A stretch of 59,348 nt of DNA from Deltaproteobacteria bacterium (GCA_024276465.1 JAJRXD010000079.1:1-59348), one strand, 5' to 3'; positions 26,190 to 51,491 are shown, counted from the first letter of the stretch. A program made the numbers and translations. Notes: generated by a model from the letters alone, not told the origin.

Positions 26190-26340
26190 TGTCCAAAATA
26201 CAGTATTATATGTATTGTTTTTTCATCTGTTTTAATGTTGAGATTGCTTCGTCGCCTGCGCTCATCGCAATGACAGTAACCGCTTGATTTTGCTTTGTAT
26301 TGTCATTGCGAGCAAAGCGCGGCAAGCTCGTTTTTGGACA
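26190..26340. repeat. MITE-like palindromic repeat, copy 1
   Basis: About 151 bp bounded by TGTCCAAAA (26190-26198) and TTTTGGACA (26332-26340). Inside are the paired words GAGATTGCTTCGTCGCCTG and GCGAGCAAAGCGCGGCAAGC. It is nearly identical to 48004-48153, and both copies are preceded by AAAATCATTAG. Word composition resembles the GCTTCGTCGC...TCGCAATGAC repeats scattered through many environmental bacterial genomes. No transposase is encoded. Confidence 0.8.
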
Positions 26341-35675: not shown

Positions 35676-36376
35676 TTCAGCCCCTTTTTGTGTGCTGTTT
35701 TGGCAAAATATTCGGCTAAAGCAAAATCTTCTTCTGTATCGATATCAACTGATTTTTCTCTTGGCATTTTATATCCAACAGTATTGTGGCCGGTCATTGT
35801 TCCGGTTTTCAGAAATATATCGACCTTCATCCAGTACAGTGACCCATTATCCACAACCACTGGTGGTTTTTCCCAATGAGGTAGTGCTGCCTGGTCTGGC
35901 CAGCGCCTTTCAATCATGCTATTGTGATTAATATTAAATGCAAAAAAGGGGGAATGTTCATATTCAGTAACACCGATCGCGTAATCAGCTTTTCTTGATA
36001 CAAGTAATTTGTAGGATTCCTTTATATCCCCGGCATCACGTAAAGGGGCGGTGGGATACAAACAGCACAAACAATCAAAATGCTTGTTTTTTCTGGCACA
36101 CCAATCTAATACATCCCTTATAACATCAACTACTCTGGCTGTATCTGAGGCAAGGTTTGCTGCCCGTCTGTGAATGTTGCACCCCAGATTGCTTATACAT
36201 GCTATTACTTCTTCATCTTCACTTGAAACAACAACTTCATCAAAGAGTCCACTTTCCATGGCAGCATCTATGGTGTAATAAATAGTGGGTCTTCCTAAAA
36301 ACGGCAATATGTTTTTTTTAGGTAACCGTTTTGAAGAGCCTTTTGCAGGTATAATAGCTATATTTTTACTGTCCAT
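35672..36376 (-). CDS. Acylneuraminate-type cytidylyltransferase (PseF/LegF-like)
   Basis: 234 residues, the usual length of CMP-nonulosonate synthases. N-terminal CTP-binding AIIPAKGSSKRLPKKNILPF, followed by DEVVVSSEDEEVIA, CLYPTAPLRDAGDI and a C-terminal VDIDTEEDFALAEY, the signature of NeuA/PseF/PtmB enzymes (CTP + nonulosonate -> CMP-nonulosonate + PPi). Likely activates pseudaminate or the second nonulosonate made in this locus. PseF versus LegF-like cannot be decided by eye. Confidence 0.85.
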   Translation of the reverse strand: MDSKNIAIIPAKGSSKRLPKKNILPFLGRPTIYYTIDAAMESGLFDEVVVSSEDEEVIACISNLGCNIHRRAANLASDTARVVDVIRDVLDWCARKNKHFDCLCCLYPTAPLRDAGDIKESYKLLVSRKADYAIGVTEYEHSPFFAFNINHNSMIERRWPDQAALPHWEKPPVVVDNGSLYWMKVDIFLKTGTMTGHNTVGYKMPREKSVDIDTEEDFALAEYFAKTAHKKGLK

Positions 36377-36389
36377 ACTTTTTGTCTGT

Positions 36390-37676
36390 TTAATTGCGTT
36401 TAAAAACAGGTCTTATCTTGTTGCCTTTCAGAAACAGATCCGGTGAGCCTTGTTGTTTAGCTAAGGCAACCCTGGTCAGGCCTGCATTGACTCCCTCAAT
36501 ATATTTTTCCAGGTCATTTTCGGTATGCATTAAACAGAAATTATTTATCCCTAAGGTCAAAACTCCTTTTAAAATGCACTCCTGCTGAAACAGGGAAAGC
36601 CAGTCTGAGGAGTCAATACCGTTGATGTTTTTAAAAACAATACCAGAATGTGGAGCAAGTCCCGCTGTTCGTACATCAGAAGACAAATTTTTTTCTGCAA
36701 TGAGGTTGTTTACAGAGTGAATCCATTTTTGTCCCAGCGTCCATATATGCTGAAAACTTTCCTTTTGTTCAAAAAGGCTTATCGTTGCCAGGGCACTTGC
36801 AATAGACAGGGTTTCTCCGCCAAATGTCATGGAAATGAAGGCCCCCTCATCAATAAGTTTCATGATATCACTTGCCCCTGTGACTAAAGACAGAGGCATG
36901 CCATTGGCAATACCCTTGCCGAAAGTTGCCAGATCCGGGGTGACATTATAATATTCCTGCGCTCCACCCAGAGACAAACGAAAGCCTGTAACTATTTCAT
37001 CAAAAATTATGAGGGCACCATTTTTGTGTGCCAAATCCTTAACTTTTTGTAAAAAATTATCCTTTGGGGGTTCCAGACCAATAGGTTCCATTATAACAGC
37101 TGCAATCTGTTGAGGGTATCTATCAAACAGAGTCAGTAAAGAATTTATGTTGTTATATTTGAATTTTTTAGTAAGCTTCCCTATTGCTTTTGGAACCCCC
37201 CTGTTTCTGTTTGTAGATGCAATGTACCAATCCTGATACCCATGATATCCACAGCAGGCAATAATTTCACGGCCGGTGTAGGCCCTGGACAGGCGTACTG
37301 CAGCAGATGTTGCATCCGAACCGTTTTTTACAAAACGAACCATTTCTGCACATGGAATAATCCTGATTATTTTTTCAGCCAGTTCCAGCTCGAGTCTATG
37401 AGAAAGTGAAAAAGAGATACCACTTTCCATCTGCTTTATTATTGATTTATTAACTCCAGGGTGGTTATATCCCACAGTAACAGCCCCAAGAGATAATACA
37501 AAGTCAACGAATTCATTGTCATCAACGTCCCAGACGTGCGATCCTATGCCCCTGCTCAGAAATGCAGGTGCGGCGCCTTCACAAAAGTATTTATAGCTTT
37601 TGCTATAAGTCTGGGCTGCTGAAGGGATTAACTTCTTTGCCTGTTTCAATAACCGTAATGAGTTGTCAAATTTCAC
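36390..37676 (-). CDS. Class-III aminotransferase (GSA-like)
   Basis: 428 residues, fold type I PLP enzyme of the glutamate-1-semialdehyde aminotransferase-like group. Key motifs: YNHPGVNKSIIKQ, NGSDATSAAVRLSRAYTGR, LIIFDEIVTGFR and the PLP lysine in ATFGKGIANGMPLS. True HemL acts in tetrapyrrole synthesis; position between APS reductase and CMP-sugar synthetase instead suggests transamination of a sugar or linker. Complete length, no defect seen. Confidence 0.82.
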   Translation of the reverse strand: MKFDNSLRLLKQAKKLIPSAAQTYSKSYKYFCEGAAPAFLSRGIGSHVWDVDDNEFVDFVLSLGAVTVGYNHPGVNKSIIKQMESGISFSLSHRLELELAEKIIRIIPCAEMVRFVKNGSDATSAAVRLSRAYTGREIIACCGYHGYQDWYIASTNRNRGVPKAIGKLTKKFKYNNINSLLTLFDRYPQQIAAVIMEPIGLEPPKDNFLQKVKDLAHKNGALIIFDEIVTGFRLSLGGAQEYYNVTPDLATFGKGIANGMPLSLVTGASDIMKLIDEGAFISMTFGGETLSIASALATISLFEQKESFQHIWTLGQKWIHSVNNLIAEKNLSSDVRTAGLAPHSGIVFKNINGIDSSDWLSLFQQECILKGVLTLGINNFCLMHTENDLEKYIEGVNAGLTRVALAKQQGSPDLFLKGNKIRPVFKRN

Positions 37677-37694
37677 AATAATTCAATCAGTCTC

Positions 37695-38366
37695 CTATAA
37701 TTTTGTATGCAAGCCACATTCCTGTCTGTCGCATCCCTGCCATCGACCGGCCCTGGTGTGTTCTCCTGGTTTTACAGGCATTGTACACGGTTGACACCCT
37801 ATACTTCTGTAACCACGGTCATATAATCTGTTATACTTAAGTTCCCTGTGTTTAATGTAATACCAGATATCAACTTCTCTCCATGCGATCATTGGATTAA
37901 GCTTGAACAGTTCAAAATTTGTCGGTTGCAAAAAGGGAATTTGTTTTCTGGTGTCTGACTGACCACGGCTGAGAGCCGTAATCCAGAGATGCTTCTCCTT
38001 GCCTGCTAACAGGTTCTGCATTGGTTCCACTTTGTTGATTTGGCAACATATATCATGTCCCATTGTGTATAATTGCTGGTTTTTATCCTCTGTTTGAGAT
38101 GTCAGTGTCTTTATACAATAACCATTTTTTTCATAATATTCCTTAATCTCCAGAGTTTCCTGAAAATGATAGTCCGTATCAATGAAGTATATCTGTACAT
38201 CTGGTATTATTTTCTTGATGATGTCTAATAAAACTGTTCCATTGCTTCCAAAAGAACTGGTCATAAATATCTTATCTGCAAAATTTTCCCTGCTCCAACA
38301 GAGAAGTGTTTTTATTTGTGAAAGCAAAAAATCAACATTTTGTTTCTGGATATCACTTGTTTTCAT
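37695..38366 (-). CDS. cysH: Assimilatory APS reductase (CysH family)
   Basis: 223 residues. Reads as a bona fide reductase: FIDTDYHFQETLEI, paired cysteines C107-C108 (DICCQ), C191/C194 in SIGCQPCT and the catalytic C217 in ECGLH. The two cysteine pairs bind the [4Fe-4S] cluster of adenylylsulfate reductases; the enzyme reduces APS to sulfite using thioredoxin. Unusually it sits between a class-III aminotransferase and a kinase in a nonulosonate block, with no cysD/N or sulfite reductase nearby. Its role here is open. Confidence 0.85.
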   Translation of the reverse strand: MKTSDIQKQNVDFLLSQIKTLLCWSRENFADKIFMTSSFGSNGTVLLDIIKKIIPDVQIYFIDTDYHFQETLEIKEYYEKNGYCIKTLTSQTEDKNQQLYTMGHDICCQINKVEPMQNLLAGKEKHLWITALSRGQSDTRKQIPFLQPTNFELFKLNPMIAWREVDIWYYIKHRELKYNRLYDRGYRSIGCQPCTMPVKPGEHTRAGRWQGCDRQECGLHTKL

Positions 38367-38382
38367 GGCATGACCAACAAAA

Positions 38383-39354
38383 TCAACTTGCTAAGCTAAT
38401 GAATTTTTTTTCTATCCGTTGTGCTTTATTGATAATATTAACATGTTTTTCAAAGTCAAAATTCCAGTTGCTGTTCTTCTCGAAAAAACGGGTTCTCAGT
38501 ATATAATTAAGCCTGCACAGGGCTTCCCACTTTATCAGATCAGGGATATCTTTCACTTCTTCCCTGCCTAAAGTCTGGTCTGTTTTCTGATATGCTTTTA
38601 TGAACCCGATCATTTCCTGAGAATTTTCAGAAAATCTGTCACAGGCAAAAGCCACAGAAAGATTCCGGGGGAGCGAACAGATACTGTCAAAATCCAGGAT
38701 TGCAGCAACATTGCCTTCCTGAAAAACGATATTTTCAGGGTGAAAATCACAATGTTCCAACCTGTGTAAAAACCTTGTTGAACTGAACTTCTCAGACAGT
38801 GTTGGAGACAGGGACTGAATCATGTCAAGATTAGCCAGGACAGTATGCTCAAATTCATGCCCCTCTTTACAGCTTTTTTTTATTCTGGTGATTTCATCTT
38901 CATTTAACGGTTTGTATAAGTCACTTCGTGGGATTATCTGGTTTATCTTAGACAGCACTTTGTTTAGTTTGCCCAGTTGCCTTGCAGCAGATTGTTTTTG
39001 TTTATCTGTTGCATTATACGGTTCTGCTTCATAGTAAGAAAAGCACACTGCTATACCCTGTTCGTGTTCAACATGATATTTTCCTGTTTTTGTTGGAACT
39101 ATTCGGGCAGTTTTTACACCGGAACTGCTGCAATTGAAAAATATGGACAGCTTATCTGAAAAAGACCTGCAAGTACCTGGAATTATTTTGAGGTGAAGGG
39201 GCTTTTTGTCCCTGTTAGAAAATACAATTTTGTAATTGATAGAATTAATCTCATGGCCACCCATATTCCGGATTGAGGAGATTATATCCCCATTCTCCAG
39301 ATAATGCCTGAGAAGGAGGTCACAATATGGGAAATTATTATTATTCAAAATCAC
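38383..39354 (-). CDS. Aminoglycoside-phosphotransferase-fold kinase, second copy
   Basis: 323 residues with HRLEHCDFHPENIVFQEG (HxDFHPxN) and the metal site AAILDFDSICSLP, APH/homoserine-kinase-II like. Weakly similar in layout to the kinase at 27563 but not a close copy. It overlaps the NeuB-like gene upstream by 14 bp and precedes the APS reductase, so it is probably in the same pathway. A small-molecule or sugar kinase; phosphorylated substrate unknown. Confidence 0.75.
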   Translation of the reverse strand: MILNNNNFPYCDLLLRHYLENGDIISSIRNMGGHEINSINYKIVFSNRDKKPLHLKIIPGTCRSFSDKLSIFFNCSSSGVKTARIVPTKTGKYHVEHEQGIAVCFSYYEAEPYNATDKQKQSAARQLGKLNKVLSKINQIIPRSDLYKPLNEDEITRIKKSCKEGHEFEHTVLANLDMIQSLSPTLSEKFSSTRFLHRLEHCDFHPENIVFQEGNVAAILDFDSICSLPRNLSVAFACDRFSENSQEMIGFIKAYQKTDQTLGREEVKDIPDLIKWEALCRLNYILRTRFFEKNSNWNFDFEKHVNIINKAQRIEKKFISLAS

Positions 39355-40375
39355 ATTCCTTAAGGAACACCCCTTCTTCCAGATCCAGAGCAGCTTTTCT
39401 GCCTACTATATTCTCATAACGGTCAACAGAGATATGCGTACCGGGGCGCTTAAAGGACAGAGACTCAACAGTGATAGTTTCACCCTTCTTTATTTTTCTG
39501 GAAGTCATTATGCTTCTGCGATGCAGTGCATTTACTCTGGAATTAAATATTATACGTGGATTACCAAAAGCCTCCTCAATTTTTCGAACAGTGTCTATGA
39601 ACTGGCCTAATTCCTGGGGCTCCAGTGACATATAATGCTCCACGGCATCTGTGGTTTTATCCAGCGTGATGGTCTTTTCAATAAAATTTGCTCCAATACC
39701 CAGGGCAGCATAATTCATGTGCTCCCCAACTGAATGATCAGAATATGCAACCGGATATCCAAATATATTTTTAATATGTGGAATAGCTTTAAGATGGATG
39801 CCGGCATATTCTGCAGGATAACCTGACGGGCAATGCATGATCACTATATCCTTAATTCCAGCCTGTTCACAGATTATTATTCCAACCTCTACGTCTTCAA
39901 ATTTTTCTCTTGCATCCATTATAACGGGCAGGCCTTTTTCGGCTATCAATCTGATAAGATACCTGTTGTTAACATCGGATTTTGCAACTTTTATTGCTGC
40001 AACATTCATTTCAGCCAGCAGATCAACTGTTTTAGGGCCGCTTGGTGTTGAAATGAACAGGATTCCCAACTCATCACAGTAAGACTTAAGTGCACGCCAT
40101 TCATCAAATGACAACTCCCTGCGCTTTAGGGCTGTATATACGCTTTCGGATTTTTTTTCCTCTGCTGTTTCATAATCGATCATAATTTTTTCAAAGCTCA
40201 TGAGTTCATCGGTATCAATGGTCTGAAATTTAACAGCATCAGCTCCAGCGTCAGCAGCAGCCTTGGCAAGCATCCTGGCGCTTTCAAGTCCGGTATGTGT
40301 TGCGCCAGGTTCTAATGATATGAAACATGGATAACCATCCCCTACAATTTTGTTGCCTATCTTTACACAATTCAT
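39341..40375 (-). CDS. NeuB-family synthase paralogue with altered metal site
   Basis: 344 residues from the ATG at 40375, chosen because AGGAGG lies 5 nt upstream (a longer frame to 40435 lacks this). A NeuB TIM barrel (LAKAAADAGADAVKFQT, AIKVAKSDVNN, VAYSDHSVGEH) is followed by a C-terminal SAF/antifreeze-like domain (RPGTHISVDRYENIVGR). In NeuB/PseI enzymes the metal is held by His in SDH and EKH; here the first is kept (H214) but the second is EKT (T235). PEP-condensing activity is therefore uncertain; it may use a different substrate or be a divergent subgroup. Confidence 0.82.
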   Translation of the reverse strand: MNCVKIGNKIVGDGYPCFISLEPGATHTGLESARMLAKAAADAGADAVKFQTIDTDELMSFEKIMIDYETAEEKKSESVYTALKRRELSFDEWRALKSYCDELGILFISTPSGPKTVDLLAEMNVAAIKVAKSDVNNRYLIRLIAEKGLPVIMDAREKFEDVEVGIIICEQAGIKDIVIMHCPSGYPAEYAGIHLKAIPHIKNIFGYPVAYSDHSVGEHMNYAALGIGANFIEKTITLDKTTDAVEHYMSLEPQELGQFIDTVRKIEEAFGNPRIIFNSRVNALHRRSIMTSRKIKKGETITVESLSFKRPGTHISVDRYENIVGRKAALDLEEGVFLKECDFE

Positions 40376-40400
40376 AAATTCCTCCTGACATACATGCTTT

Positions 40401-41486
40401 TTATGAGTGCTTATGTAAGTGCTTACTCTTGTCATTAATTAAATCCCAGCAGAAAGGGGTGCCAGCCTTTACATCCCTGTTGAACAGGCTACCCAGAACC
40501 TCTGGTAAATATCTTGGATGTAACCCATACCCCGGCCTGATCGAACGTACATTTTCAGAGGTTATAACATGCCCTGCTTCCACATCTTTTACTACAAATA
40601 ATGAACGACGAAAAATTTTATTTTTCTTCTCTCTTTCTGTTGATTTGTACTTCACCTCCCCCAATGCCTTTTCAGTTCTCCTCACAGCACGGACAAGCGC
40701 TTTGAACTCATCCACTTCCATGGAAAATTCAGCGTCCGGGCCACCATCACAACGGGAAAGTGTAATGTGCTTCTCAATAACAGCTGCACCCAAAGCAACA
40801 GCAGCAATGGCTGCTTCATGACCAAGTGTATGGTCAGACAAGCCTGCGGGCAGCCCAAAAGTTTCGGACAGATCTGGAATAGTTCGCAGATTCATATCTT
40901 CAATATCGGCAGGATAGTCACTTACACATTTGAGCAAAACCAGTTGATTATTCCCAAGCTTGCGAACAGTTGCTACCGCTTCTTCAATTTCTACTAATGT
41001 GGCCATTCCAGTGGACATAATAATGGGCCTGTTTTTTTTTGCAATGTATTCGATCAGGGGAATATCTACCAGTTCAAAGGAGGCAATTTTGTATGCAGGA
41101 ATGTCCATTTTAGACAGGAAATCGGCAGCACTCTTGTCATAAGGAGTAGAAAACAGCAAAAGGCCTAATTTCTCAGCTTCTTTTTTCAACTTTGGCTGCC
41201 AATCCCATGGCATACAGGCTTTCTGATACAATTCGTAAAGTGTTTGGCCAGACCATGTATTGCCCGCAGGTATTTTGAAATAATCATTATCACAATTAAA
41301 AGTCAGGGTGTCAGGGGTATAGGTCTGAAGTTTGACAGCATCTGCACCAGCTTCTTTTGCTGCATTTACCAGTTCGAGGGCCTTATGATAACTTTGATTA
41401 TGGTTAGCTGATATTTCAGCAATAATATAGCAGGGATGGCCTTCACCAATAATTCTATTATTAATGCTAATGTTTTCGTAAGCCAT
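40401..41486 (-). CDS. pseI: Pseudaminic acid synthase PseI
   Basis: 361 residues from the ATG at 41486 (GGGGGTGAGT just upstream). Condenses PEP with 2,4-diacylamido-2,4,6-trideoxy-L-altrose to give a pseudaminate. Motifs: YIIAEISANHNQSYHKAL, VKLQTYTPDTLT, metal histidines H219 (LSDHTLG) and H240 (VIEKHITL), then GGPDAEFSMEVDEF, specific to PseI against NeuB. C-terminal SAF domain present. It lies 2 bp after the formyltransferase stop. Confidence 0.9.
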   Translation of the reverse strand: MAYENISINNRIIGEGHPCYIIAEISANHNQSYHKALELVNAAKEAGADAVKLQTYTPDTLTFNCDNDYFKIPAGNTWSGQTLYELYQKACMPWDWQPKLKKEAEKLGLLLFSTPYDKSAADFLSKMDIPAYKIASFELVDIPLIEYIAKKNRPIIMSTGMATLVEIEEAVATVRKLGNNQLVLLKCVSDYPADIEDMNLRTIPDLSETFGLPAGLSDHTLGHEAAIAAVALGAAVIEKHITLSRCDGGPDAEFSMEVDEFKALVRAVRRTEKALGEVKYKSTEREKKNKIFRRSLFVVKDVEAGHVITSENVRSIRPGYGLHPRYLPEVLGSLFNRDVKAGTPFCWDLINDKSKHLHKHS

Positions 41487-41488
41487 AC

Positions 41489-42085
41489 TCACCCCCAAGT
41501 TTTTTCAGATGTTTTAATTGCCCTGCCCATTATATCTATTATTGGTGTGTCCCAGCCTTTGACAAGAAGATGTTCATACTTTTTTTTGTCTGAAGTTTTG
41601 TGATATGAACCAGCAATGTTCTGTCTTTTTCGAGGATTTGTCCCATTTACAATTTCAGGCCAAATTTGTTCAAATAAAAGCACAATTTCATTTTGCAGCT
41701 TATGATAGCTTGTTGCAAGTGTTTCTGCTTTCAGATTAAAGAACACTTTTTTTTGTACAATGATATCACCAGTGTCAATACCCTCGTCAATGTAGTGTAT
41801 TGAAACGCCCTTTGGGGTGTTTTCCAGGAAGCTCCACAAATTTGGATCAGCCCCTCTGTTCCATGGGAGATATGAAATATGAAGGTTAATGATTTGATCT
41901 GGAAGAAACTTCAAAACAGGTGTGCGGAGAAGATATCTGTACCCATAACTGACAATGAAATCAATGGCATTTTTTTTCAGGAAATCGACATCAACAGGTT
42001 CTGTTATATTTACAGTTTCGTTCCCATGCTTTCTGATAATTGAAGTGAAGGGGGAATCAGTTGGCCCTAAAATTAATATTCTCAT
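41489..42085 (-). CDS. Formyltransferase-fold sugar N-formyltransferase
   Basis: 198 residues. Has the 10-formyl-THF site: NLHISYLPWNRGADPN, and SIHYIDEGIDTGDIIVQ, resembling sugar N-formyltransferases. It stands exactly where the acetyltransferase PseH is expected (between PseG and PseI). I infer that the free 4-amino group of UDP-4-amino-AltNAc is formylated, which would become the 7-N-formyl of pseudaminate. No GNAT acetyltransferase is present in the window. Confidence 0.75.
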   Translation of the reverse strand: MRILILGPTDSPFTSIIRKHGNETVNITEPVDVDFLKKNAIDFIVSYGYRYLLRTPVLKFLPDQIINLHISYLPWNRGADPNLWSFLENTPKGVSIHYIDEGIDTGDIIVQKKVFFNLKAETLATSYHKLQNEIVLLFEQIWPEIVNGTNPRKRQNIAGSYHKTSDKKKYEHLLVKGWDTPIIDIMGRAIKTSEKTWG

Positions 42086-43133
42086 TTTTTGTGTATGTAA
42101 TCAGATTGATAACTCTCCGGCCACCAGAACCGTCCACTGTTTTTTTTGCTTTATGGGCCATGTTTTTACGCATGGACAGATCAAGCAGCAAAGCATTAAC
42201 AGTATTTGCTATGTGATCGACGGATACTTTGTTAAACAAGCCAAGGTTCACAACTGCTCCCTTTTCATGCAGGCCCTCAGCAATTCTATGCTGGTTTTCA
42301 GCAATTACCAGAACAACTGCCGGCAGGCCCATGTATGCCAGCTCCCAGCATGTGCTTCCGCCTGCAGATATTGCCAAATCAGCCCACGCCATCAGTTCAG
42401 GCATGTTTTTGGCAAAAGTTAAAAGGCAGGATTTAAATGCAGAGGCTGATAAGATGTTCCGGAGACTTTTAAGATGCGGATTAAGAGGCCCTGCAACAAT
42501 CTTTACATCAAGCTCCGGAGATTCAAGCATGTTCAGGGCGTTAATTACTTTCAATGTTGTGTTGTCAGGATCACTTCCGCCCATGGTAACAAGAATTTTT
42601 CGAGTATTGCCCGGAATGATGCGACTGGAATTTCTGAAGTGTAAAAACTCCTGCCGCAGCATAACATATTTTGATCCAAGAAGACGAATTGTATTTTTGT
42701 CGCACGAATAGTTGAGCTCCGAAGCATTAATGTTCTGATTGAGCAGGATATCACAATGGTATTCCGGAAGATGGTTTGTATCATCAATTACAAGAAGGTG
42801 GCAGCCTGAATCGAGTAATTGCAGCTGGTATTCAGAAACAAAGTGGTATCCGTCAAGTATCAGCCAGGAGCCATTAGAATCTGATAAAATTTTTAAAGTT
42901 TTTTTCAAATCAGATGGCTCGGGATGTGGCATGGGAATTGTCAGGAGTTCAAACCCTTCTTTTAAAATGCGCTGCTTAAGAGCTTTGTCATGACAGGATG
43001 TTATGAATGTTACCCCTGCAGCCCCATGGGCCCTGCATGCTTGGGCAAGGGCAATACAGCGCATAATATGGCCGCTTCCCATGCTGGGGCTTGCATCAGC
43101 CCGGAAAAATATTTTCATTTTTTTCAGCATCAT
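42057..43133 (-). CDS. pseG: PseG, UDP-sugar hydrolase of pseudaminate pathway
   Basis: 358 residues. Removes UDP from UDP-2,4-diacylamido-2,4,6-trideoxy-L-altrose. N-terminal GT-B like motif MKIFFRADASPSMGSGHIMRC with the catalytic His in MGSGH, then LLVIDDTNHLPEYHCD, VTMGGSDPDNTTLKV and SAGGSTCWELAYMGLP. It overlaps the formyltransferase start by 29 bp. ATG at 43133 has AAGG 7 nt upstream; M at 43118 is also possible. Confidence 0.9.
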   Translation of the reverse strand: MMLKKMKIFFRADASPSMGSGHIMRCIALAQACRAHGAAGVTFITSCHDKALKQRILKEGFELLTIPMPHPEPSDLKKTLKILSDSNGSWLILDGYHFVSEYQLQLLDSGCHLLVIDDTNHLPEYHCDILLNQNINASELNYSCDKNTIRLLGSKYVMLRQEFLHFRNSSRIIPGNTRKILVTMGGSDPDNTTLKVINALNMLESPELDVKIVAGPLNPHLKSLRNILSASAFKSCLLTFAKNMPELMAWADLAISAGGSTCWELAYMGLPAVVLVIAENQHRIAEGLHEKGAVVNLGLFNKVSVDHIANTVNALLLDLSMRKNMAHKAKKTVDGSGGRRVINLITYTKNENINFRAN

Positions 43134-43327
43134 ATAAGCCTTTTAAAACCTGAAACAGCAGGCTGACCTTTAAGCATTTCTTTTGTGGTGCCGGTTTTTT
43201 CAGAGTGTGCCAAGACTTTAAACTCTTTGTCTGCTGGCTGACTGCCTGTATTAGCAATTCCATACTCCATCCCCAGCTGGGCTGTTCCGAGAACCAACTG
43301 AGAAATAGTCTCATTTTTCCATGTCAA
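43130..43327 (-). pseudogene. Aldo/keto reductase remnant
   Basis: A 65-codon frame: SQLVLGTAQLGMEYGIANTG and DKEFKVL are the start of an aldo/keto reductase (Lxx-LGTAQLG-YGIAN), but the barrel's remaining 250 residues are missing and the tail text is unfamiliar. The start would be a TTG. Reductases of this kind occur beside pseB/pseC in other bacteria. I interpret it as a gene reduced by internal deletion. Confidence 0.6.
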
Positions 43328-43366
43328 GTGGTTTACTTTGGTTATATGGGAAAAATTAGAAGATAA

Positions 43367-44512
43367 TCATGCGAAAAGTTTTCTGATCTCATGCTGCAGC
43401 GTGGAAACTACATGCATGATGTCTTCGTCCTGCATTCCGGGAAACATGGGTAGAGAAATTATTTCGTTATATGCTCTCTCTGCATTAGGACAAAGTCCTT
43501 TTGATGTTTTAAAATGTTTTCTGTAGTAAGGGTGCAGATGGACAGGGATGTAGTGTATGTTAACGTTAATTCCAGCATTGCGAAATGCTGCAAAAAGTTC
43601 TGACCTGTGGGTTTGTAATCGAATTACATACAGGTGATATGCATGGCAAACATGGGTAGCTACGGATAGCGGCATTACAGCAGGGAACTTGCTGAGCTCC
43701 AGGTCATACCGTAAAGCGATCTCCTGCCGACGTTTAATCCAGGCAGGCAGTTTTTTTAACTGGCTGACTCCCAGCGCACACTGGAAGTCAGTAATGCGAT
43801 AGTTATATCCAAGGTCAACCATCTCATAAAACCATGTGCCTTTTTCAGCGCGCTGCATATGGTCAACATCGATGCAATGATTTCGAAATATTCGCATGCG
43901 TTTTGCAAATTCGTGATTGTCTGTTGTAACCATTCCCCCTTCACCGGTTGTGATATGCTTTACAGGGTGAAAGCTGAAAATGTTCAAATCTGCAAGGGTT
44001 CCAGCTCTTCGCCCCTTGTATTCGGCACCAAGGGAGTGGCATGCATCCGCAACCAGTGTCAGGTTGTAGTGGTCTGCAATTTTTCTCAGCAGGTCATAAT
44101 CACAGGGCTGACCCGCATAATCAACAGCTATAATTGCTTTTGTTTGAGGTGTGATTTTTTTTTCAATAAGGGCTGGATCGATCAGGAGGCTGTTTGAATC
44201 TACATCTGAAAAAACAGGCTTGCCCTGCTGGAATACCACAGCATTTGCTGTTGCAGCAAACGTCATTGGCGGAACAATTACTTCATCACCCGGGCCGATT
44301 CCAATTGCATACATGGCAGCGTGAAGAGCTGCTGTTCCGCTTGAAACAGCAACAGCTTCTTTTGCGCCCACAAAATCTCCCACTGCATTTTCAAATGCCT
44401 CAACAGCAGGGCCGGTAGTAAGCCAGTCGGATTTCAGAACATCCACAACAGCCTGGATGTCGGATTCATCTATTGACTGGCGACCGTATGGAATTGTTTT
44501 TTTCAATCCCAT
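43367..44512 (-). CDS. pseC: PseC, UDP-4-amino-4,6-dideoxy-AltNAc transaminase
   Basis: 381 residues of the DegT family. Transfers amino from glutamate to the 4-keto sugar made by PseB. Motifs: IPYGRQSIDESDIQAV, VSSGTAALHAAMYAIG, LVADACHSLGAEY and the PLP lysine in FSFHPVKHITTGEGG, the typical PseC form. It overlaps PseB by 10 bp. Complete and consistent with a pseudaminate pathway. Confidence 0.92.
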   Translation of the reverse strand: MGLKKTIPYGRQSIDESDIQAVVDVLKSDWLTTGPAVEAFENAVGDFVGAKEAVAVSSGTAALHAAMYAIGIGPGDEVIVPPMTFAATANAVVFQQGKPVFSDVDSNSLLIDPALIEKKITPQTKAIIAVDYAGQPCDYDLLRKIADHYNLTLVADACHSLGAEYKGRRAGTLADLNIFSFHPVKHITTGEGGMVTTDNHEFAKRMRIFRNHCIDVDHMQRAEKGTWFYEMVDLGYNYRITDFQCALGVSQLKKLPAWIKRRQEIALRYDLELSKFPAVMPLSVATHVCHAYHLYVIRLQTHRSELFAAFRNAGINVNIHYIPVHLHPYYRKHFKTSKGLCPNAERAYNEIISLPMFPGMQDEDIMHVVSTLQHEIRKLFA

Positions 44513-45498
44513 GCTCCTGATTCAATAAGATTTCTAATGTCTTTAATTGACAGCCATTCAGGGTTTGTATCACTCGAGTATGAAAAATTATCCGGACATT
44601 GTTTTCCACCCTTTTGTATTAAATTGCTTTTGCTTGCCCACCAGTCAAGTATTGGCTGAATAACAAAATGGTCTTTAAACTCCAGCGTATGACGTGCTTC
44701 ATCAGCTGGAACCATTGTCTCATGAAGTTTTTCGCCAGGCCTGATCCCGATATATTCTATCTTTGCCTCAGGTCCTATGGCTTTTGCAATATCAGTCATT
44801 TTACAGCTTGAAATTTTCGGAACAAACAGCTCTCCTCCATACATTGTTTCAAGACTGCGTATTACGAAATCAACTGCCTGCTGCAATGTTAAAAAAAAGC
44901 GGGTCATCCTCTCATCAGTAACAGGGATAACCCCCCCCTTTTTTTTTTCAAGGAAAAATGGAATAACTGATCCACGGCTCCCAACAACATTTCCGTAGCG
45001 TACAACTGAAAAGATGGATTTTGCTTCCCCGCTCATTGCATTGCCTGCTATAAATAATTTATCTGAGCACAGTTTTGATGCTCCATACAGGTTGATGGGG
45101 TTTGCGGCTTTGTCTGTGCTGAGGGCGATAACTTTCTTTACTTTCTGATTAATTGCAGCTCTGATGACATTCTGAGCTCCTAAAACATTTGTTTTTATTG
45201 CTTCAAAGGGGTTATACTCAGCAGTAGGGACCTGCTTGAGAGCAGCTGCATGGATGACGTAATCAACATTATGAAAGGCTTCGTACAAACGATCCTGTTC
45301 CCTGACATCTCCGATAAAGTAGCGCATACAGCCATATTTTTCAGGGGAATAAATCCTGGCCATCTCAAACTGCTTAAGCTCATCGCGTGAAAAAACAATG
45401 AGTTTGTTTGGCTTATACTGTTCAAGAATGGTTTTTACCATTCTTTTTCCAAATGATCCGGTGCCGCCTGTTATTAATATGTTTTTACTGTTAAACAT
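44503..45498 (-). CDS. pseB: PseB, UDP-GlcNAc 4,6-dehydratase (inverting)
   Basis: 331 residues. First step of CMP-pseudaminate synthesis: dehydrates UDP-GlcNAc with C5 inversion. NAD-binding ILITGGTGSFGKRMV, IHAAALKQVPTAEYNP, then ALSTDKAANPINLYGASK and IGIRPGEKLHETMV, all diagnostic of inverting dehydratases. Overlaps pseC by 10 bp. Full-length. Confidence 0.93.
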   Translation of the reverse strand: MFNSKNILITGGTGSFGKRMVKTILEQYKPNKLIVFSRDELKQFEMARIYSPEKYGCMRYFIGDVREQDRLYEAFHNVDYVIHAAALKQVPTAEYNPFEAIKTNVLGAQNVIRAAINQKVKKVIALSTDKAANPINLYGASKLCSDKLFIAGNAMSGEAKSIFSVVRYGNVVGSRGSVIPFFLEKKKGGVIPVTDERMTRFFLTLQQAVDFVIRSLETMYGGELFVPKISSCKMTDIAKAIGPEAKIEYIGIRPGEKLHETMVPADEARHTLEFKDHFVIQPILDWWASKSNLIQKGGKQCPDNFSYSSDTNPEWLSIKDIRNLIESGAWD

Positions 45499-45547: not shown

Positions 45548-45988
45548 TCAGTTTAATCTGTCCAGGTCTAATAAGTCCTTTTTTCTCCCGCTTGTTTTTT
45601 TAGCCTTTATTAAGTCTTTCTTGCCAATAAGGCTGATCTTTACGCCATCATACGTGCTGTCCTGTTTGTTTTTGAACGCATCCCTGAATTCAACACCGGC
45701 GATTCCCATCAAGAGATCAATTCTATTTGGCGCAATGCCTATTTGATAAATAATATCTTTGTCGGTAAAATCAGTAATGCTTATGTCCTTCAAAGGAGCA
45801 CCAAACCTTGATAAAGCCCCCCAAAGTTTTTTTGCATTTTCAGGTGTTGGGTTGACCCAGATATCCATATCTTTTGTGTATCGCGGTTCAGCATAAAAAA
45901 TTACGGCATGGGCGCCGACAATCAGATATTCAACGTTTTCTTCGTTTAATATTTTGAACAGTTCTTTGAAGTCTTGATTGGATGACAT
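45548..45988 (-). CDS. MNT-type nucleotidyltransferase (toxin-like)
   Basis: About 146 residues. Nucleotidyltransferase text EYLIVGAHAVIFYAEPRYTK followed by DMDIWV (DxD), then KDIIYQIGIAPNRIDLLM. This is the MNT/DUF6036 type, often paired with a small partner as a toxin-antitoxin or defence module. ATG at 45988 has GAGGTG 6 nt upstream; a GTG at 45997 also fits. It overlaps the partner gene, which is the signature of a two-gene unit. Confidence 0.7.
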   Translation of the reverse strand: MSSNQDFKELFKILNEENVEYLIVGAHAVIFYAEPRYTKDMDIWVNPTPENAKKLWGALSRFGAPLKDISITDFTDKDIIYQIGIAPNRIDLLMGIAGVEFRDAFKNKQDSTYDGVKISLIGKKDLIKAKKTSGRKKDLLDLDRLN

Positions 45989-46154
45989 TTCTTTCACCTC
46001 TTATTAATAAAACTTCATTGACCATTTCCCAGGTTGCGGCAAATTTTGCTTCATGCCCCAATTGGTCCCAGAAATTTTTGTCAAAATTATTGCTGTCTTC
46101 TGATGACCTTCGGATTTTTCGTGTCACCATATTTTTTTTTATTTTATTAACCAT
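45930..46154 (-). CDS. Small partner of the nucleotidyltransferase
   Basis: 74 residues, very basic C-terminus (IQSRLQRTVQNIKRRKR) and a central FWDQLGHEAKFAATWEMVNE segment. Similar short proteins are commonly encoded just before MNT-type nucleotidyltransferases in this phylum (from memory), so an antitoxin or regulator role is inferred. It overlaps its partner by about 59 bp. No characterised domain is recognised. Confidence 0.55.
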   Translation of the reverse strand: MVNKIKKNMVTRKIRRSSEDSNNFDKNFWDQLGHEAKFAATWEMVNEVLLIRGERNVIQSRLQRTVQNIKRRKR

Positions 46155-46357: not shown

Positions 46358-47008
46358 TTATCCATCTGCAACAAGCTCATGCAGGCTGAAGAGATCAGTG
46401 ATACTGGTCTCGATGTTTATATCTCTGAAAATATTATCTTCAGGGTCCTTTATCCTTGCAACAAAGGGGACATGGTTTTCCAGGGCTGCATTATAGTCAC
46501 TCATGGCATCACCCACAAAAAGGGTTTTTTGCGGTGCTGTCTTTTTCTCCTGAAGGATCTTTTTTACCCATTCTCCCTTTGAGGTGGGAGAGCCAAATAC
46601 CCCCCTGAAGTAGTTGTCAATTTTTTTTGCCTTTACTATTTCGGCAATCTCTTCATGCGGGGTTCCCGAAACAACAAACAGGGGAACTTTGTGGCAGTAT
46701 TTGTCAAGGAATTCAAGGGCGCCAGGCACATAGTCACATTCCAGAACACGCTGGAACACAAGCCGGGAAAAATCATTGCAAAGCCTGTTAAACTGTTTTT
46801 CTGTAAGTTGCTGCTTCAAAATTTCTTTGTAAATATATCTGATTTTTTCAAAACGTGACACACCGCCATTTGCATGGTGGTATGCAACTATTTCATCCAC
46901 ATGCTCAGGGTATTGGTTAAACAGCCTGCCAAAAACCAGCCCTTTGATGTCAACTGACTCAATAATGACACCGTCAAAATCTAAAAAAACCGCCTGTATA
47001 GATCTCAT
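46358..47008 (-). CDS. HAD-superfamily phosphatase
   Basis: 216 residues. HAD motif I VFLDFDGVIIES (D10, D12), motif II VVSGTPHEEI, and the C-terminal FVGDAMSDYNAALEN with the metal-binding Asp pair. Phosphoglycolate-phosphatase-like group. Position after the SDR and before the nucleotidyltransferase suggests it dephosphorylates a sugar-phosphate intermediate, analogous to KdsC or the 9-phosphate phosphatase of nonulosonate routes. Substrate unknown. Confidence 0.83.
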   Translation of the reverse strand: MRSIQAVFLDFDGVIIESVDIKGLVFGRLFNQYPEHVDEIVAYHHANGGVSRFEKIRYIYKEILKQQLTEKQFNRLCNDFSRLVFQRVLECDYVPGALEFLDKYCHKVPLFVVSGTPHEEIAEIVKAKKIDNYFRGVFGSPTSKGEWVKKILQEKKTAPQKTLFVGDAMSDYNAALENHVPFVARIKDPEDNIFRDINIETSITDLFSLHELVADG

Positions 47009-47017
47009 TTTCTGAGT

Positions 47018-47983
47018 TCAGGGTGAAGGGTCAATAAGTTTTTCAATATGCCGAAGGTTTTTATTTTTTTTATCTGACATTGAATATACTTCATAAATAA
47101 CATCCAGAATTCCCTGTCCAAGATCATAATAACTGCCTGCCACAAGCTTTTTTGCTACTCTTGGTCTGAAAGAATAAGGCGTTATCTCGTAGTGTCCTGT
47201 TTCAGGTTCTGTGCTGTATTCAATAGTGATTTTATCCTGAAATATTTCTTTTATCATGTTTAAAAGATTTTTTACTTTGGTGGACTGGGTGCCTGTAAGT
47301 ATTACATTTTGATTTTTAAAATCTTCCGAAAGGATATCAACACTGCACCTTGCTGCATCAGCAACATGAATATAATCTCTTATCTCCTCCCCGTCTCCCT
47401 TTCTTGTAATCCTGCCCTCCTCGATTGCCTGCTTTACGATTTTGTATATGAAGTTAAAGCTGTTTGCTCTTCGGCCATACAGTGAGCCGTATCTCAGAAT
47501 AGTGTAGTCAAGGCAGAAGGCCTTTTGGTAGTCTTCAATTATCAGCTCGCAGGCCTGTTTGCTGCTCCTGTAGAAAGGCGCTAAGTCGCTGTAAACATAT
47601 ATTGTGCTGGCAAAGACAAAGCGCTTTATCCGGTTTAACCTGCATGCTTCTAAAATATTTGTGTTGCCAAGGACGTTTGTTTCAATTGCCTTTAAAGGAT
47701 CCTGGCATGCTTCATCAAGCCCTGCAATACCTGCAAAATTGTACACATAATCAGATCCTTTCAGAGCAGAAACAACTTTTCCCCTGTCAAGAATATCACC
47801 TTCAATCATATTCTGATTTTTTCGAAGATAGGGGGACTTTTTATGGTCATAGATGGTTACGCAGTAGCCCCTTTCAGACAGCTCATCTGCAACATAACTT
47901 CCGAGGAAGCCTGCTCCTCCGAAAACAATCACCCTGTCTTTAGGATTAAGGGGTGAAGGATTACCTGTAGATGATTTTTTCAT
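47018..47983 (-). CDS. NAD-dependent epimerase/dehydratase (extended SDR)
   Basis: 321 residues from the ATG at 47983. NAD-binding VIVFGGAGFLGSYVAD, DYVYNFAGIAGLDEA, and the catalytic Tyr/Lys in YRSSKQACE. Nucleotide-sugar-modifying SDR. A longer frame to 48010 would start inside the MITE repeat, so the ATG downstream of it is preferred. It is the next gene after the dehydrogenase of the aldolase module. Confidence 0.84.
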   Translation of the reverse strand: MKKSSTGNPSPLNPKDRVIVFGGAGFLGSYVADELSERGYCVTIYDHKKSPYLRKNQNMIEGDILDRGKVVSALKGSDYVYNFAGIAGLDEACQDPLKAIETNVLGNTNILEACRLNRIKRFVFASTIYVYSDLAPFYRSSKQACELIIEDYQKAFCLDYTILRYGSLYGRRANSFNFIYKIVKQAIEEGRITRKGDGEEIRDYIHVADAARCSVDILSEDFKNQNVILTGTQSTKVKNLLNMIKEIFQDKITIEYSTEPETGHYEITPYSFRPRVAKKLVAGSYYDLGQGILDVIYEVYSMSDKKNKNLRHIEKLIDPSP

Positions 47984-48003
47984 GAATGCACCAAAATCAT
48001 TAG

Positions 48004-48153
48004 TGTCCAAAATACAGTATTAATGTATTGTTTTTGCATCTGTTTTAATGTTGAGATTGCTTCGTCGCCTGTGCTCCTCGCAATGACAGTAACCTCTTGA
48101 TTTTGATTTGTATTGTCATTGCGAGCGAAGCGCGGCAATCTCGTTTTTGGACA
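48004..48153. repeat. MITE-like palindromic repeat, copy 2
   Basis: 150 bp bounded by TGTCCAAAA and TTTTGGACA, near-identical to 26190-26340 apart from a few substitutions and one or two single-base length differences. Sits between the SDR gene start (21 bp away) and the next gene. Preceded, as copy 1, by AAAATCATTAG. Could affect transcription or mRNA stability in the operon through its strong hairpin. Confidence 0.82.
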
Positions 48154-48230
48154 ACTATACACCAAAATAATGTTAATGCCATTGAAGTTCTAAAACTGCT
48201 TTTTACGAGTACATCAGGATTAAGAGATAA

Positions 48231-48305
48231 TCATTTTTTAAGATTATAAACTTCCAGAACTGAATTATGAGCTTTTTGCCAAACCTTTAAATCCTTCCAA
48301 TGCAT
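48231..48305 (-). pseudogene. Four-helix-bundle (IVS-type) protein fragment
   Basis: A 24-codon frame, KDLKVWQKAHNSVLEVYNL, is the N-terminus of the four-helix-bundle proteins originally seen in 23S rRNA intervening sequences (D-L-x-VWQKAH-x-L). It ends at a TGA after KK, and the remaining 90 or so residues are absent. It lies directly beside the MITE copy. A relic. Confidence 0.5.
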
Positions 48306-48324
48306 AAAACTAACCCTTCAATCC

Positions 48325-49269
48325 TTAATCCTGTCTTTCCTCTAATCCTTTACTCCTTTTAATCCTTAATCCTCTTAAAAGATTTTCAACAGCCTGCATC
48401 TCCATCTCAATCCGTGCCTCCTTTGCATATGAACCGATGTGAGGTGTAAGAATAACATTGGGCAGATGTCTTAAAGGGCCGCAGTATGGCTCCTGGTCAA
48501 AGACATCAAGAGCTGCACCTGCAATGTGCCCTTTTTCCAGACAGTGGTAAAGGGCTTCTTCATCAACAACTCCGCCCCGGGAAATGTTTACAAGCCAGCT
48601 GCCTTTTTTCATCTCCGACAGTTCTTTTTCTCCTATTACCGGCTTGCAGTTAACAGATGGAGAGAGGTGCAGGGAAATAATATCAGCCCACCCTAAAATC
48701 TCCTCAAATTTTTTCCTGCTGCATCTGATCGAACATGACTTTGGCTCTAAATCACAGTACACAAGCTCTACCCCAAAGGGGTGCAGCAGTTCGGCAACTT
48801 TTCTGCCTATGCGCCCGAAGCCTATAATCCCTATCTTTTTGCAGCTCAGAAGACTGCCCATCTGTTTCTGCCAGATCCCATCTTTCATCTGCCTGCTCAT
48901 CCAGGTTATTTTCCGAAGAAGGCCAAGAATAAGCGCAACTGTTACTTCAGCTACAGCCAGGGTTGGTCCGTCCGGTGTATTAAACACTTTTATCCCAAGA
49001 TTTTCAGCTGCTTTCATGTCCACGTTTTCCATGCCCACACCACACCGTGAAACAGCTTTAAGTCCGGGGAGATGATTGAGAACCCTGCTGTTTAACGGTT
49101 CTGTACCGGCTATTATGCCATCAACCCCCTGTGCAAGTTCTATAATCTCTTCTTCAGTAACTTTTCTGCCGTGTGGATTCAGGACATATTGAACTCCTGC
49201 ATCAATGAGGCGGTCCAGAGGTGCTGGATCGTATTTCCCAAACGAAGATGTAGTAATAGCAGCTTTCAT
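48325..49269 (-). CDS. D-2-hydroxyacid dehydrogenase (SerA-like)
   Basis: 314 residues. NAD motif IGIIGFGRIGRKVAELL, catalytic Arg in VNISRGGVVDEEA, Glu in VFDQEPY and His in ILTPHIGS: a complete catalytic triad. Phosphoglycerate-dehydrogenase type, but within an aldolase/cytidylyltransferase module, so it may act on a sugar-derived 2-hydroxy or 2-keto acid. ATGA overlap with the cytidylyltransferase stop indicates co-translation. Confidence 0.87.
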   Translation of the reverse strand: MKAAITTSSFGKYDPAPLDRLIDAGVQYVLNPHGRKVTEEEIIELAQGVDGIIAGTEPLNSRVLNHLPGLKAVSRCGVGMENVDMKAAENLGIKVFNTPDGPTLAVAEVTVALILGLLRKITWMSRQMKDGIWQKQMGSLLSCKKIGIIGFGRIGRKVAELLHPFGVELVYCDLEPKSCSIRCSRKKFEEILGWADIISLHLSPSVNCKPVIGEKELSEMKKGSWLVNISRGGVVDEEALYHCLEKGHIAGAALDVFDQEPYCGPLRHLPNVILTPHIGSYAKEARIEMEMQAVENLLRGLRIKRSKGLEERQD

Positions 49270-50045
49270 TGAAGACCGGGTTTATATTTTTTTATCAGCA
49301 CATCATCCTTCATCAGTTTTTCAACATGCTTCAGGTCACTGCCTGTATCAACGCTGTAGGTTTCACTGCCTGCCCGTATCATTTTAACCCTGAACCCGTG
49401 TTCCAAAACCCTTAACATGTCAACTGATTCAGCTATTTCAAGTGGGGTTTGTTCAAGATCATTAAACTTTATTAAAAAGTCACGGCGAAAAGGAATAATG
49501 CAGACCTGTTTCAGCATGGAAATATTTTCAGCGCCTTTTTTCCACGAGGGTATGGGCTCGCGGGAAAAATAAAGGGCAAATCCGGATCTGTCCACAACCA
49601 CTTTAACCTCATTTGGATCTTTCTGCTCCTTTTTTGTTTTGAGCGGAGCCATCAGATTTGAGACCTGAATGCTCTTATCCTCAATCAAAGGCCTGACAGC
49701 TTTATCAATCATCTCCGGGAAAAGCATGGGCTCGTCGCCCTGGATCATGACTGCAATGTCTGCTCTGCTGCCTGTTTTTGATTCAATCTTTTCCATGGCT
49801 TCTGCTGTCCGGTCAGAGGCTCGTTCGTGGGTATCTGCGGTCATGACAGGTTCTCCGCCTATTGATTCCACATAGTCTGCAATTTCCTGATCACAGGTTG
49901 CAACATAGACATCAGAAAGAGCAGAACTCATTTTGCTCCGGAAGTAAACATGTCCTATCATGGGGATGCCGCAGATTTGGGCAAGGGGCTTCCCGGGGAA
50001 ACGGCTTGAGGCCATGCGTGCTGGTATTATTCCAATAATATTCAT
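49266..50045 (-). CDS. KdsB-like cytidylyltransferase
   Basis: 259 residues. N-terminal GIIPARMASSRFPGKPLAQI, ALSDVYVATCDQEIADY, AVMIQGDEPMLFPEMI and YSVDTGSDLKHVEKL match 3-deoxy-D-manno-octulosonate cytidylyltransferase (CTP + Kdo -> CMP-Kdo + PPi). Because it is embedded with an aldolase and a dehydrogenase and not with kdsA/D, its true substrate may be another 3-deoxy-ulosonate. It abuts the aldolase stop and overlaps the dehydrogenase. Confidence 0.85.
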   Translation of the reverse strand: MNIIGIIPARMASSRFPGKPLAQICGIPMIGHVYFRSKMSSALSDVYVATCDQEIADYVESIGGEPVMTADTHERASDRTAEAMEKIESKTGSRADIAVMIQGDEPMLFPEMIDKAVRPLIEDKSIQVSNLMAPLKTKKEQKDPNEVKVVVDRSGFALYFSREPIPSWKKGAENISMLKQVCIIPFRRDFLIKFNDLEQTPLEIAESVDMLRVLEHGFRVKMIRAGSETYSVDTGSDLKHVEKLMKDDVLIKKYKPGLQ

Positions 50046-50813
50046 CTATTTCCCTTTCAAGGTTGACATTGCCTGACAGGCAGCATCACCCAGGAAAACA
50101 GCGTCAAGGCTGAATGCCAGCAGCTTAAAACCCTCGGTCTGTTTTTTTCTTGCTTCTTCAGGATCAGATGGAACGCAGTGAAATCCTGCAGGAATATTGT
50201 GACGGATACCAGCTGCCTTTACTTTTTCCAGGGCTCTTAAAAGCTCAGGGTCGTCAAATACACCAGGTTTGCCAAGAGAGCCTGAGAGGTCATAGGGGCC
50301 AACCATGAATGCATCTATGCCTGGTGCTGCAAGTATCTCATCAATGTTGCGGACTGCATCAATATGCTCGATCTGGACAACTACAACGCTCTCTTCGGAA
50401 AGCCATTGTCTGTATTCATCAAATTTTCTGCCGAATTTCTGTGCCCTGTACAGTCCGACCCCGCGGGTTCCGGCAGGGGGATACCTGACAGCGCTTACCG
50501 CAGCTTCAGCATCCTGTTTGCTGTTGACATTTGGCACTATAACTCCATAAGCGCCGGAGTCCATTACCCTCTTGATTAAATTGGGACTGTTTTCTCCGAT
50601 ACGGACAAGCGGAACAAGATTATTAGCTTCTATTGAGATGATAATTGACAGCAGATCATTTATCCCGATGGAGCTGTGCTCCATGTCAACAGCCAGCCAT
50701 TCAAACCCGGCCTGGGCTAATATTTCAGGGATTAAGGGATGGGCAATGGTTATCCATGAGCCATAGGTTTGTCTGTTTTCTGCCAATGCTTTTTTAAGAG
50801 GATTTTTTTTCAT
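50046..50813 (-). CDS. HpcH/HpaI-family aldolase
   Basis: About 255 residues. Catalytic-region motifs: WLAVDMEHSSIG, LVPLVRIGENSPN, YGVIVPNVNSKQDAEAA, TRGVGLYRAQKFG and QIEHIDAVRNIDEI, then MVGPYDLSGSLGKPG. Class II, metal-dependent pyruvate aldolases of the 2-dehydro-3-deoxyglucarate type. It would make or split a 3-deoxy-2-keto acid. I start at the ATG at 50813 (AAAGGA 9 nt upstream); 50819 is also possible. Confidence 0.85.
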   Translation of the reverse strand: MKKNPLKKALAENRQTYGSWITIAHPLIPEILAQAGFEWLAVDMEHSSIGINDLLSIIISIEANNLVPLVRIGENSPNLIKRVMDSGAYGVIVPNVNSKQDAEAAVSAVRYPPAGTRGVGLYRAQKFGRKFDEYRQWLSEESVVVVQIEHIDAVRNIDEILAAPGIDAFMVGPYDLSGSLGKPGVFDDPELLRALEKVKAAGIRHNIPAGFHCVPSDPEEARKKQTEGFKLLAFSLDAVFLGDAACQAMSTLKGK

Positions 50814-50927: not shown

Positions 50928-51491
50928 TTATGCAGGCTCTACATCCAGTGCATCTATTTTTACTGATGCACCCTGCTGCAGTATATCAACAGAAAGCACA
51001 AGAATATGCTGCCCCTTGCGCTTTACCAGTATTCCTTCAACACCTGCCAGAGACCCGTTTTTTATTCGAACTCTTTGTCCTTCCCTGAGGTATGGATAGG
51101 GTTCAACAGGGGTTTTGCTTTCCATAAGGGTTTTCAGGGAGTTGATTTGTACATTTGGGACCTGTGCGGGTTTGCCGGGCTTTGCACTCAAAAATCGCAC
51201 AACCCCATGGGTTTTTAGCACAGCAAGCATATGGTCTTTTTGCTCAGGGATATGTACAAACATATAACCTGGAAAAAGAGGAAATATCACCAGTTTTTTT
51301 CTATCCTTCCACCTCCTGAGCATCTGGACTGCAGGCAGAAATGCCTCTATGCCTGTTTTTGTCAACAGTTCATGAACACGAAACTCATGGCGGGACTTGA
51401 CGTACACCGCATACCAGAAACAATCCTGGCTGCTGTTAACTGCCGTAAATCCAGTTTCAAAATTAAAGGGATCTGGTACAGTTGTATCCAT
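50928..51491 (-). CDS. NusG-like (UpxY/RfaH type) antiterminator
   Basis: 187 residues: an NGN domain beginning FWYAVYVKSRHEFRVHELL and running through LVIFPLFPGYMFVHI, followed by a KOW-like segment (REGQRVRIKNGSLAGVEGIL). Such specialised NusG paralogues bind RNA polymerase and promote transcription through long polysaccharide operons (UpxY, LoaP, RfaH). It is the second gene of the operon, directly after the winged-helix regulator, so it is produced early and can act on the 40 kb that follows. No clear ops-like element seen. Confidence 0.88.
   Translation of the reverse strand: MDTTVPDPFNFETGFTAVNSSQDCFWYAVYVKSRHEFRVHELLTKTGIEAFLPAVQMLRRWKDRKKLVIFPLFPGYMFVHIPEQKDHMLAVLKTHGVVRFLSAKPGKPAQVPNVQINSLKTLMESKTPVEPYPYLREGQRVRIKNGSLAGVEGILVKRKGQHILVLSVDILQQGASVKIDALDVEPA

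Follow-up and report, generated by a model that had tools for sequence, protein, structure and literature searches.

Within the window, by which we mean the whole 59,348-nucleotide stretch of deltaproteobacterial DNA that was analysed, five open reading frames occupy positions 46358-50813 of the minus strand and are transcribed in the order aldolase (ALD), cytidylyltransferase (CT), dehydrogenase (DH), short-chain dehydrogenase (SDR) and HAD-type hydrolase (HAD) (Table 1). All five were found where the first-pass annotation had placed them, and searches with Pfam and NCBIfam models returned the identities that it had given. For SDR, the ATG at 47983 was chosen over the TTG at 48010 that begins the frame in the ORF list. 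Overlaps or gaps of a few bases had been described between some of the genes, and this holds where the ALD stop codon abuts the CT ATG, where CT and DH overlap by 4 bp, and where SDR and HAD lie 9 bp apart, but 341 bp lie between DH and SDR. In this gap sits one of the six copies that the genome has of a dispersed repeat, counted at no more than 2 mismatches (control, 0), and we therefore do not regard the five genes here as one seamless operon. The repeat resembles an inverted-repeat element (GTCATTGCGAGGAGC...GCGACGAAGCAATCT), and another copy in the window lies at 26241-26274.

Table 1. Features of the locus (positions counted from the first letter of the window).
Feature	Position	Strand	Evidence
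ALD, HpcH/HpaI-type (class II) pyruvate aldolase	50046-50813	-	PF03328, E 3e-33; motifs EH, R, QIE, GPYDL
CT, KdsB-like cytidylyltransferase with switched sugar pocket	49266-50045	-	PF02348, 1.5e-48; NF009905, 1e-93
DH, D-2-hydroxyacid dehydrogenase, SerA-like	48325-49269	-	PF02826/PF00389; Arg/Glu/His catalytic motifs kept
Dispersed repeat copy, in the DH-SDR gap	48054-48087	-	six genome copies
SDR, extended short-chain dehydrogenase	47018-47983	-	PF01370, 2.9e-43; GGxGFLGS and YRxSK
HAD, HAD-IA phosphatase/mutase-like hydrolase, not KdsC	46358-47008	-	PF13419, 1.2e-13; DFDGV and GDAxxD kept
NusG-like antiterminator, RfaH/UpxY-like by position, immediately upstream of the module	50928-51491	-	PF02357, 1.6e-21
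Pseudaminic-acid type genes (PseB, PseC, PseG, formyltransferase-like, PseI, second NeuB-like), downstream	39341-45498	-	TIGR03589, TIGR03588, TIGR03590, TIGR03586 above cut-off

The NusG-like gene is shared with the nearest relative of the locus, L039 (69%). On the other side, the Pse-type locus (36390-45498) contains two NeuB homologues, a PseI (40401-41498) that scores above cut-off and a second (39341-40435) that falls below all cut-offs, as well as a glutamate-1-semialdehyde-aminomutase-like PLP protein (36390-37676) and a formyltransferase-like gene where the acetyltransferase PseH might be expected; the product of this locus is possibly a formylated or otherwise unusual nonulosonate. 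Between the five genes and PseB lies a small nucleotidyltransferase-like ORF (45548-45997), for which neither Pfam nor the other loci gave a match.

A search for the five genes in other genomes, which the first-pass annotation had proposed, showed that the set recurs across phyla and domains, often in a different order. When ALD was searched in 395 genomes of the phylum, its relatives formed a group at 47-75% identity, followed by a gap to the rest, and the neighbourhoods of the closer relatives contained mostly the same partners with the gene order changed. A second scan used an alignment of the module CTs alone, with one genome per species, and the best 80 of 293 loci were examined. By their record labels these 80 represented some 30 phyla, among them Omnitrophota, Bacteroidota, Nitrospirota, Campylobacterota, Bacillota and Chloroflexota, and six were archaeal contigs. 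ALD was present near CT in 74 of the 80, SDR in 59, DH in 57 and HAD in 55, with all five genes in 42, counts that cover the flanks only, many of the contigs ending close to CT. Roughly one CT copy in four had no DH nearby. Eleven loci, mostly Desulfovibrio-like, had ALD, SDR, CT and HAD only.

As an internal control, every ORF of the window was compared with those of 91 related loci, most of which had been picked by one of the five genes. The module genes recurred in 54-78 of these loci and the next-best window ORF in 24 at most, so that the grouping of the five goes far beyond chance. Pairwise protein distances were correlated in all ten gene pairs (r 0.34-0.82, least for DH), a level reached in 0 of 499 permutations and to which shared ancestry contributes. 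The notion that a catabolic aldolase, a serine-pathway dehydrogenase and a housekeeping KdsB are chance neighbours in a polysaccharide locus might appeal to the fact that each family is common and promiscuous, but it is refuted by the comparative data and keeps practically no weight: exactly these five genes recur across phyla and domains, and the housekeeping kdsB, kdsA and kdsC form a cluster of their own. On the sequence comparisons, the five genes form a mobile cassette that is widely conserved in bacteria and some archaea.

Other genes accompany the cassette less regularly. A PF04199 cyclase/arylformamidase-like hydrolase lies among the cassette genes in 30 loci (e.g., L085:13747-14412) and, like the methyltransferases found in some loci, appears to be an optional partner; it was not found in the genome studied here and is thus not essential to the core. 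Among 73 neighbours of about 490-680 amino acids, screened for a constant glycosyltransferase partner, the named families seen most often were TIGR04326 (13) and TIGR04331 (11); the two window proteins that were checked matched neither. Plasmid and phage searches returned KdsB relatives of only 29-41% identity, together with one full variant cassette on an Acuticoccus plasmid. Cultured carriers include Syntrophomonas wolfei subsp. methylbutyratica, Daejeonella sp. H1SJ63 and Acuticoccus sp. I52.16.1. Among named carriers none turned up whose polysaccharide has been solved, and the Acuticoccus cassette is likewise without a known glycan.

The first-pass annotation had stated that KdsA, KdsC and KdsD are missing. 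This is true only beside the module, as canonical kdsB (35767), kdsA (38445) and kdsC (40420-40878) lie together on contig C143 of the same genome. With that canonical KdsB the module CT shares 39-40% identity. It matches the KdsB structure 1gq9 (E 1.6e-45) and exceeds the cut-off of the subfamily model NF009905 (313, cut-off 255), and among the curated KdsB models it scores 156.5 with TIGR00466 (cut-off 155.2) and 189.9 with the equivalog NF003948 (cut-off 281). To compare residues, 87 module CTs were aligned with 7 intermediates and 33 canonical KdsBs, including KdsB and KpsU of E. coli. The catalytic nucleotide and metal residues R10, K19, R78, Q98, D100 and R157 (E. coli numbers) are kept in all 87 module CTs. 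In the sugar half of the enzyme, H181 is replaced by Q, Y185 by I or M, E210 by D and Q211 by M, each in 87 of 87, as is S/T74 by R outside this set of four, while the canonical enzymes keep Y185, E210 and Q211 in 33 of 33 and H181 in 30 of 33; in the window CT the corresponding residues are Q180, I184, D209 and M210. We take H181, Y185, E210 and Q211 to be Kdo contacts, as in the ternary structure of E. coli KdsB with CTP and 2-deoxy-Kdo. Where the first-pass annotation had weighed a Kdo-specific CT served by a kdsA elsewhere in the genome, we find that kdsA does lie elsewhere, with a canonical kdsB of its own, and that the module CT is devoid of these presumed contact residues.

In a phylogenetic tree, the module CTs formed a clan of their own, distinct from canonical KdsB, with a support of 0.89, or of 0.93 when the seven intermediates are counted in. 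The module CTs are a sister clade of KdsB with an invariantly altered sugar half. In Aquifex KdsB, it is the C-terminal domain that binds Kdo (PMC3149649). The exchanges of Tyr for Ile and Gln for Met make the pocket more hydrophobic, and one might guess at a sugar tail that is shorter or less hydroxylated than that of Kdo. An AlphaFold model of CT, built with nine sequences, had a mean pLDDT of 64.7, with values below 50 across most of the sugar-binding half (127-225), and was set aside as too poor there. A further KdsB-like group, mostly 48-50% identical to the module CT (L045:6926-7687, L083:12999, L091:16435, L108:18115, L124:15406, L048:3683 and L069:1510), shares D210 and mostly M211 and varies at 181 and 185; it stands beside the module CT in several loci and may perhaps serve a second CMP-sugar.

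These data bear on the possibility that the locus is an alternative supply of Kdo for a capsule, with ALD making Kdo from D-arabinose and pyruvate, as a Kdo aldolase run in reverse, and CT acting as a KpsU-like CMP-Kdo synthetase. KpsU is a precedent for a second synthetase (PMC3149649), and NCBI KdsB models do match CT, NF009905 above its cut-off and TIGR00466 at it. We consider this supply improbable, because KpsU keeps the H, Y, E and Q that are changed in every module CT, because DH, SDR and HAD would be left unexplained, and because the archaeal and Gram-positive carriers tested lack KdsA and canonical KdsB. Among these archaeal, Syntrophomonas-type and Peptococcaceae genomes, no KdsA was detected above cut-off, the weaker matches being probably relatives of DAHP synthase, and the module CT was the sole match to the KdsB family.

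Eight cassettes contain no KdsB-like gene (L040-L043, L046, L051, L057 and the Acuticoccus plasmid, L169), and all of them carry instead a NeuA/PseF-like CT, 48-62% identical to the L051 copy, that matches PseF weakly and well under cut-off. On the Acuticoccus plasmid ALD, CT, DH, HAD and SDR are consecutive, and L040 consists of ALD and the NeuA/PseF-like CT only, with no recognisable DH, HAD or cassette-type SDR. No locus had both types: the NeuA/PseF-like CT was found in 0 of the 87 KdsB-type loci, a sample that is biased, most of these loci having been selected by their KdsB-like CT, but informative. The KdsB and NeuA families both activate 2-keto-3-deoxy sugar acids with CMP, and the exchange of one for the other therefore supports a product of that class.

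The replacement of the KdsB-like CT by a NeuA/PseF-like one would also suit a nonulosonic acid, made or modified with the neighbouring Pse genes, whose C9 product CT would activate; Pse genes lie directly downstream both here and in L039, and NeuB/PseC-like genes are found near some other cassette copies. We think this unlikely. The Pse genes of the window recur in only 8-24 of the 91 cassette loci, many of them through cross-matches, and the window has a PseF-like CT of its own (35672-36376), which is only 27-28% like the NeuA/PseF-like cassette type. Moreover, the aldolase takes the place of a NeuB synthase and does not use one. The product of the cassette is most likely neither Kdo nor a nonulosonate made by NeuB.

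ALD matches its solved relatives GarL, YfaU and HpaI with E values of 1e-32 to 1e-41, and its His/Arg/Glu/Asp motifs are conserved among 86 module copies, of which 85 have the Tyr of GPYDLSGS. Aldolases of the HpcH/HpaI family are promiscuous, many of them serving catabolism. The best equivalog match of DH is 3-phosphoglycerate dehydrogenase (TIGR01327), at a score of 220 that is far under the cut-off of 454, and DH has Gly at the position of what is presumably the phosphate-site Arg of that enzyme. SDR copies from different phyla are 48-75% identical, and the catalytic motifs of DH, SDR and HAD are conserved among the module copies. HAD is not KdsC, the only TIGR01670 match in the genome being the kdsC gene of the Kdo cluster. 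In three loci (L080:12375-14153, L124:10777-12555 and L126:11674-13446) DH is fused to a divergent N-terminal CT-like domain from which the usual PARxGSxR start is absent, an arrangement that once more links DH with nucleotide activation.

Two linked pathways might instead feed the same glycan, ALD and CT yielding one CMP-sugar acid and DH, SDR and HAD, often with the PF04199 hydrolase, a different precursor. The fusion of DH to a second CT-like domain also speaks for this arrangement. ALD-CT and DH-SDR-HAD often stand apart as two blocks, in some cases on different strands (L104, L119, L129), and some short loci show ALD and CT only. However, cassettes without KdsB retain ALD beside DH, SDR and HAD, and the distances that correlate best are those of SDR, HAD and CT (r 0.78-0.82). 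We regard two pathways as rather doubtful and favour a single one.

We propose, with a probability of about 0.7, that the product of the cassette is a 3-deoxy-2-ulosonic acid distinct from Kdo, activated with CMP and destined for a surface polysaccharide or glycoconjugate. A pyruvate-aldolase route to such an acid, parallel to those of Kdo and the nonulosonates, had been suggested in the first-pass annotation, and it gains support from the occurrence of the set in both domains, the altered sugar pocket, the separate Kdo genes, the LPS-less carriers without Kdo genes and the exchange for a NeuA-type CT. SDR and DH would prepare or tailor the carbon chain, perhaps supplying the aldehyde, although their roles in making an ulosonate are not obvious. 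ALD, to judge by its family, would join pyruvate to a hydroxy-aldehyde, and HAD may remove a phosphate before or after this aldol step. CT, with CTP as donor, would then attach CMP to the product at the 2-hydroxyl, as the conserved catalytic residues of CT and its NeuA-like replacement suggest, and a locus-specific transferase would add the activated ulosonate to the glycan.

In chemical terms, what is proposed is a variant of CMP-ulosonate synthesis. With somewhat less assurance, we lean towards seeing in it a third general route to CMP-ulosonates beside the PEP-dependent Kdo and nonulosonate routes, namely a pyruvate-aldolase cassette of bacteria and archaea with a novel sugar acid and two exchangeable CTs. 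The open-access literature on aldolase with CMP-Kdo synthetase, on Leptospira O-antigen loci and on pentulosonic acids, outside which most subscription papers fall, yielded no description of the gene set. Standard annotation labels CT as KdsB and so hides what would be a separate activated sugar acid of many environmental phyla and of archaea without Kdo. If the proposal is true, glycobiology would gain a further CMP-sugar, made from pyruvate by a simple route, as well as a sequence signature by which the route can be found and KdsB annotations corrected.

Among known systems, the CMP-Kdo pathway (KdsD, KdsA, KdsC, KdsB) resembles the cassette in its KdsB-superfamily CT with the same catalytic residues, its HAD phosphatase and its surface-glycan context. 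The cassette differs in having a pyruvate aldolase instead of the PEP-dependent KdsA, a HAD-IA enzyme instead of KdsC, DH and SDR in addition, and invariantly changed sugar-site residues in CT, and it occurs without KdsA. The CMP-nonulosonate pathways (NeuB/PseI/LegI with NeuA/PseF/LegF) likewise activate a 2-keto-3-deoxy acid with CMP, and some cassettes use a NeuA/PseF-like CT; in contrast, the cassette follows an aldolase route, there being no NeuB-type synthase among the conserved five (the NeuB-like genes of the window occur in only 17 of the 91 loci), and its core set has neither an aminotransferase nor an acetyltransferase. HpaI, GarL and YfaU share the class II fold family and catalytic motifs of ALD, but GarL and its relatives have small residues where the module enzyme has the Tyr of GPYDLSGS, and ALD is found in glycan loci and not in catabolic operons. 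A cytidylyltransferase is also paired with a PF01370 oxidoreductase in a Campylobacter capsule locus, for the synthesis of CDP-6-D-glucitol (HS5.18/HS5.17; PMC10918830); that cytidylyltransferase belongs to PF01128 and acts on fructose-6-P, whereas the cassette CT belongs to PF02348 and is accompanied by an aldolase.
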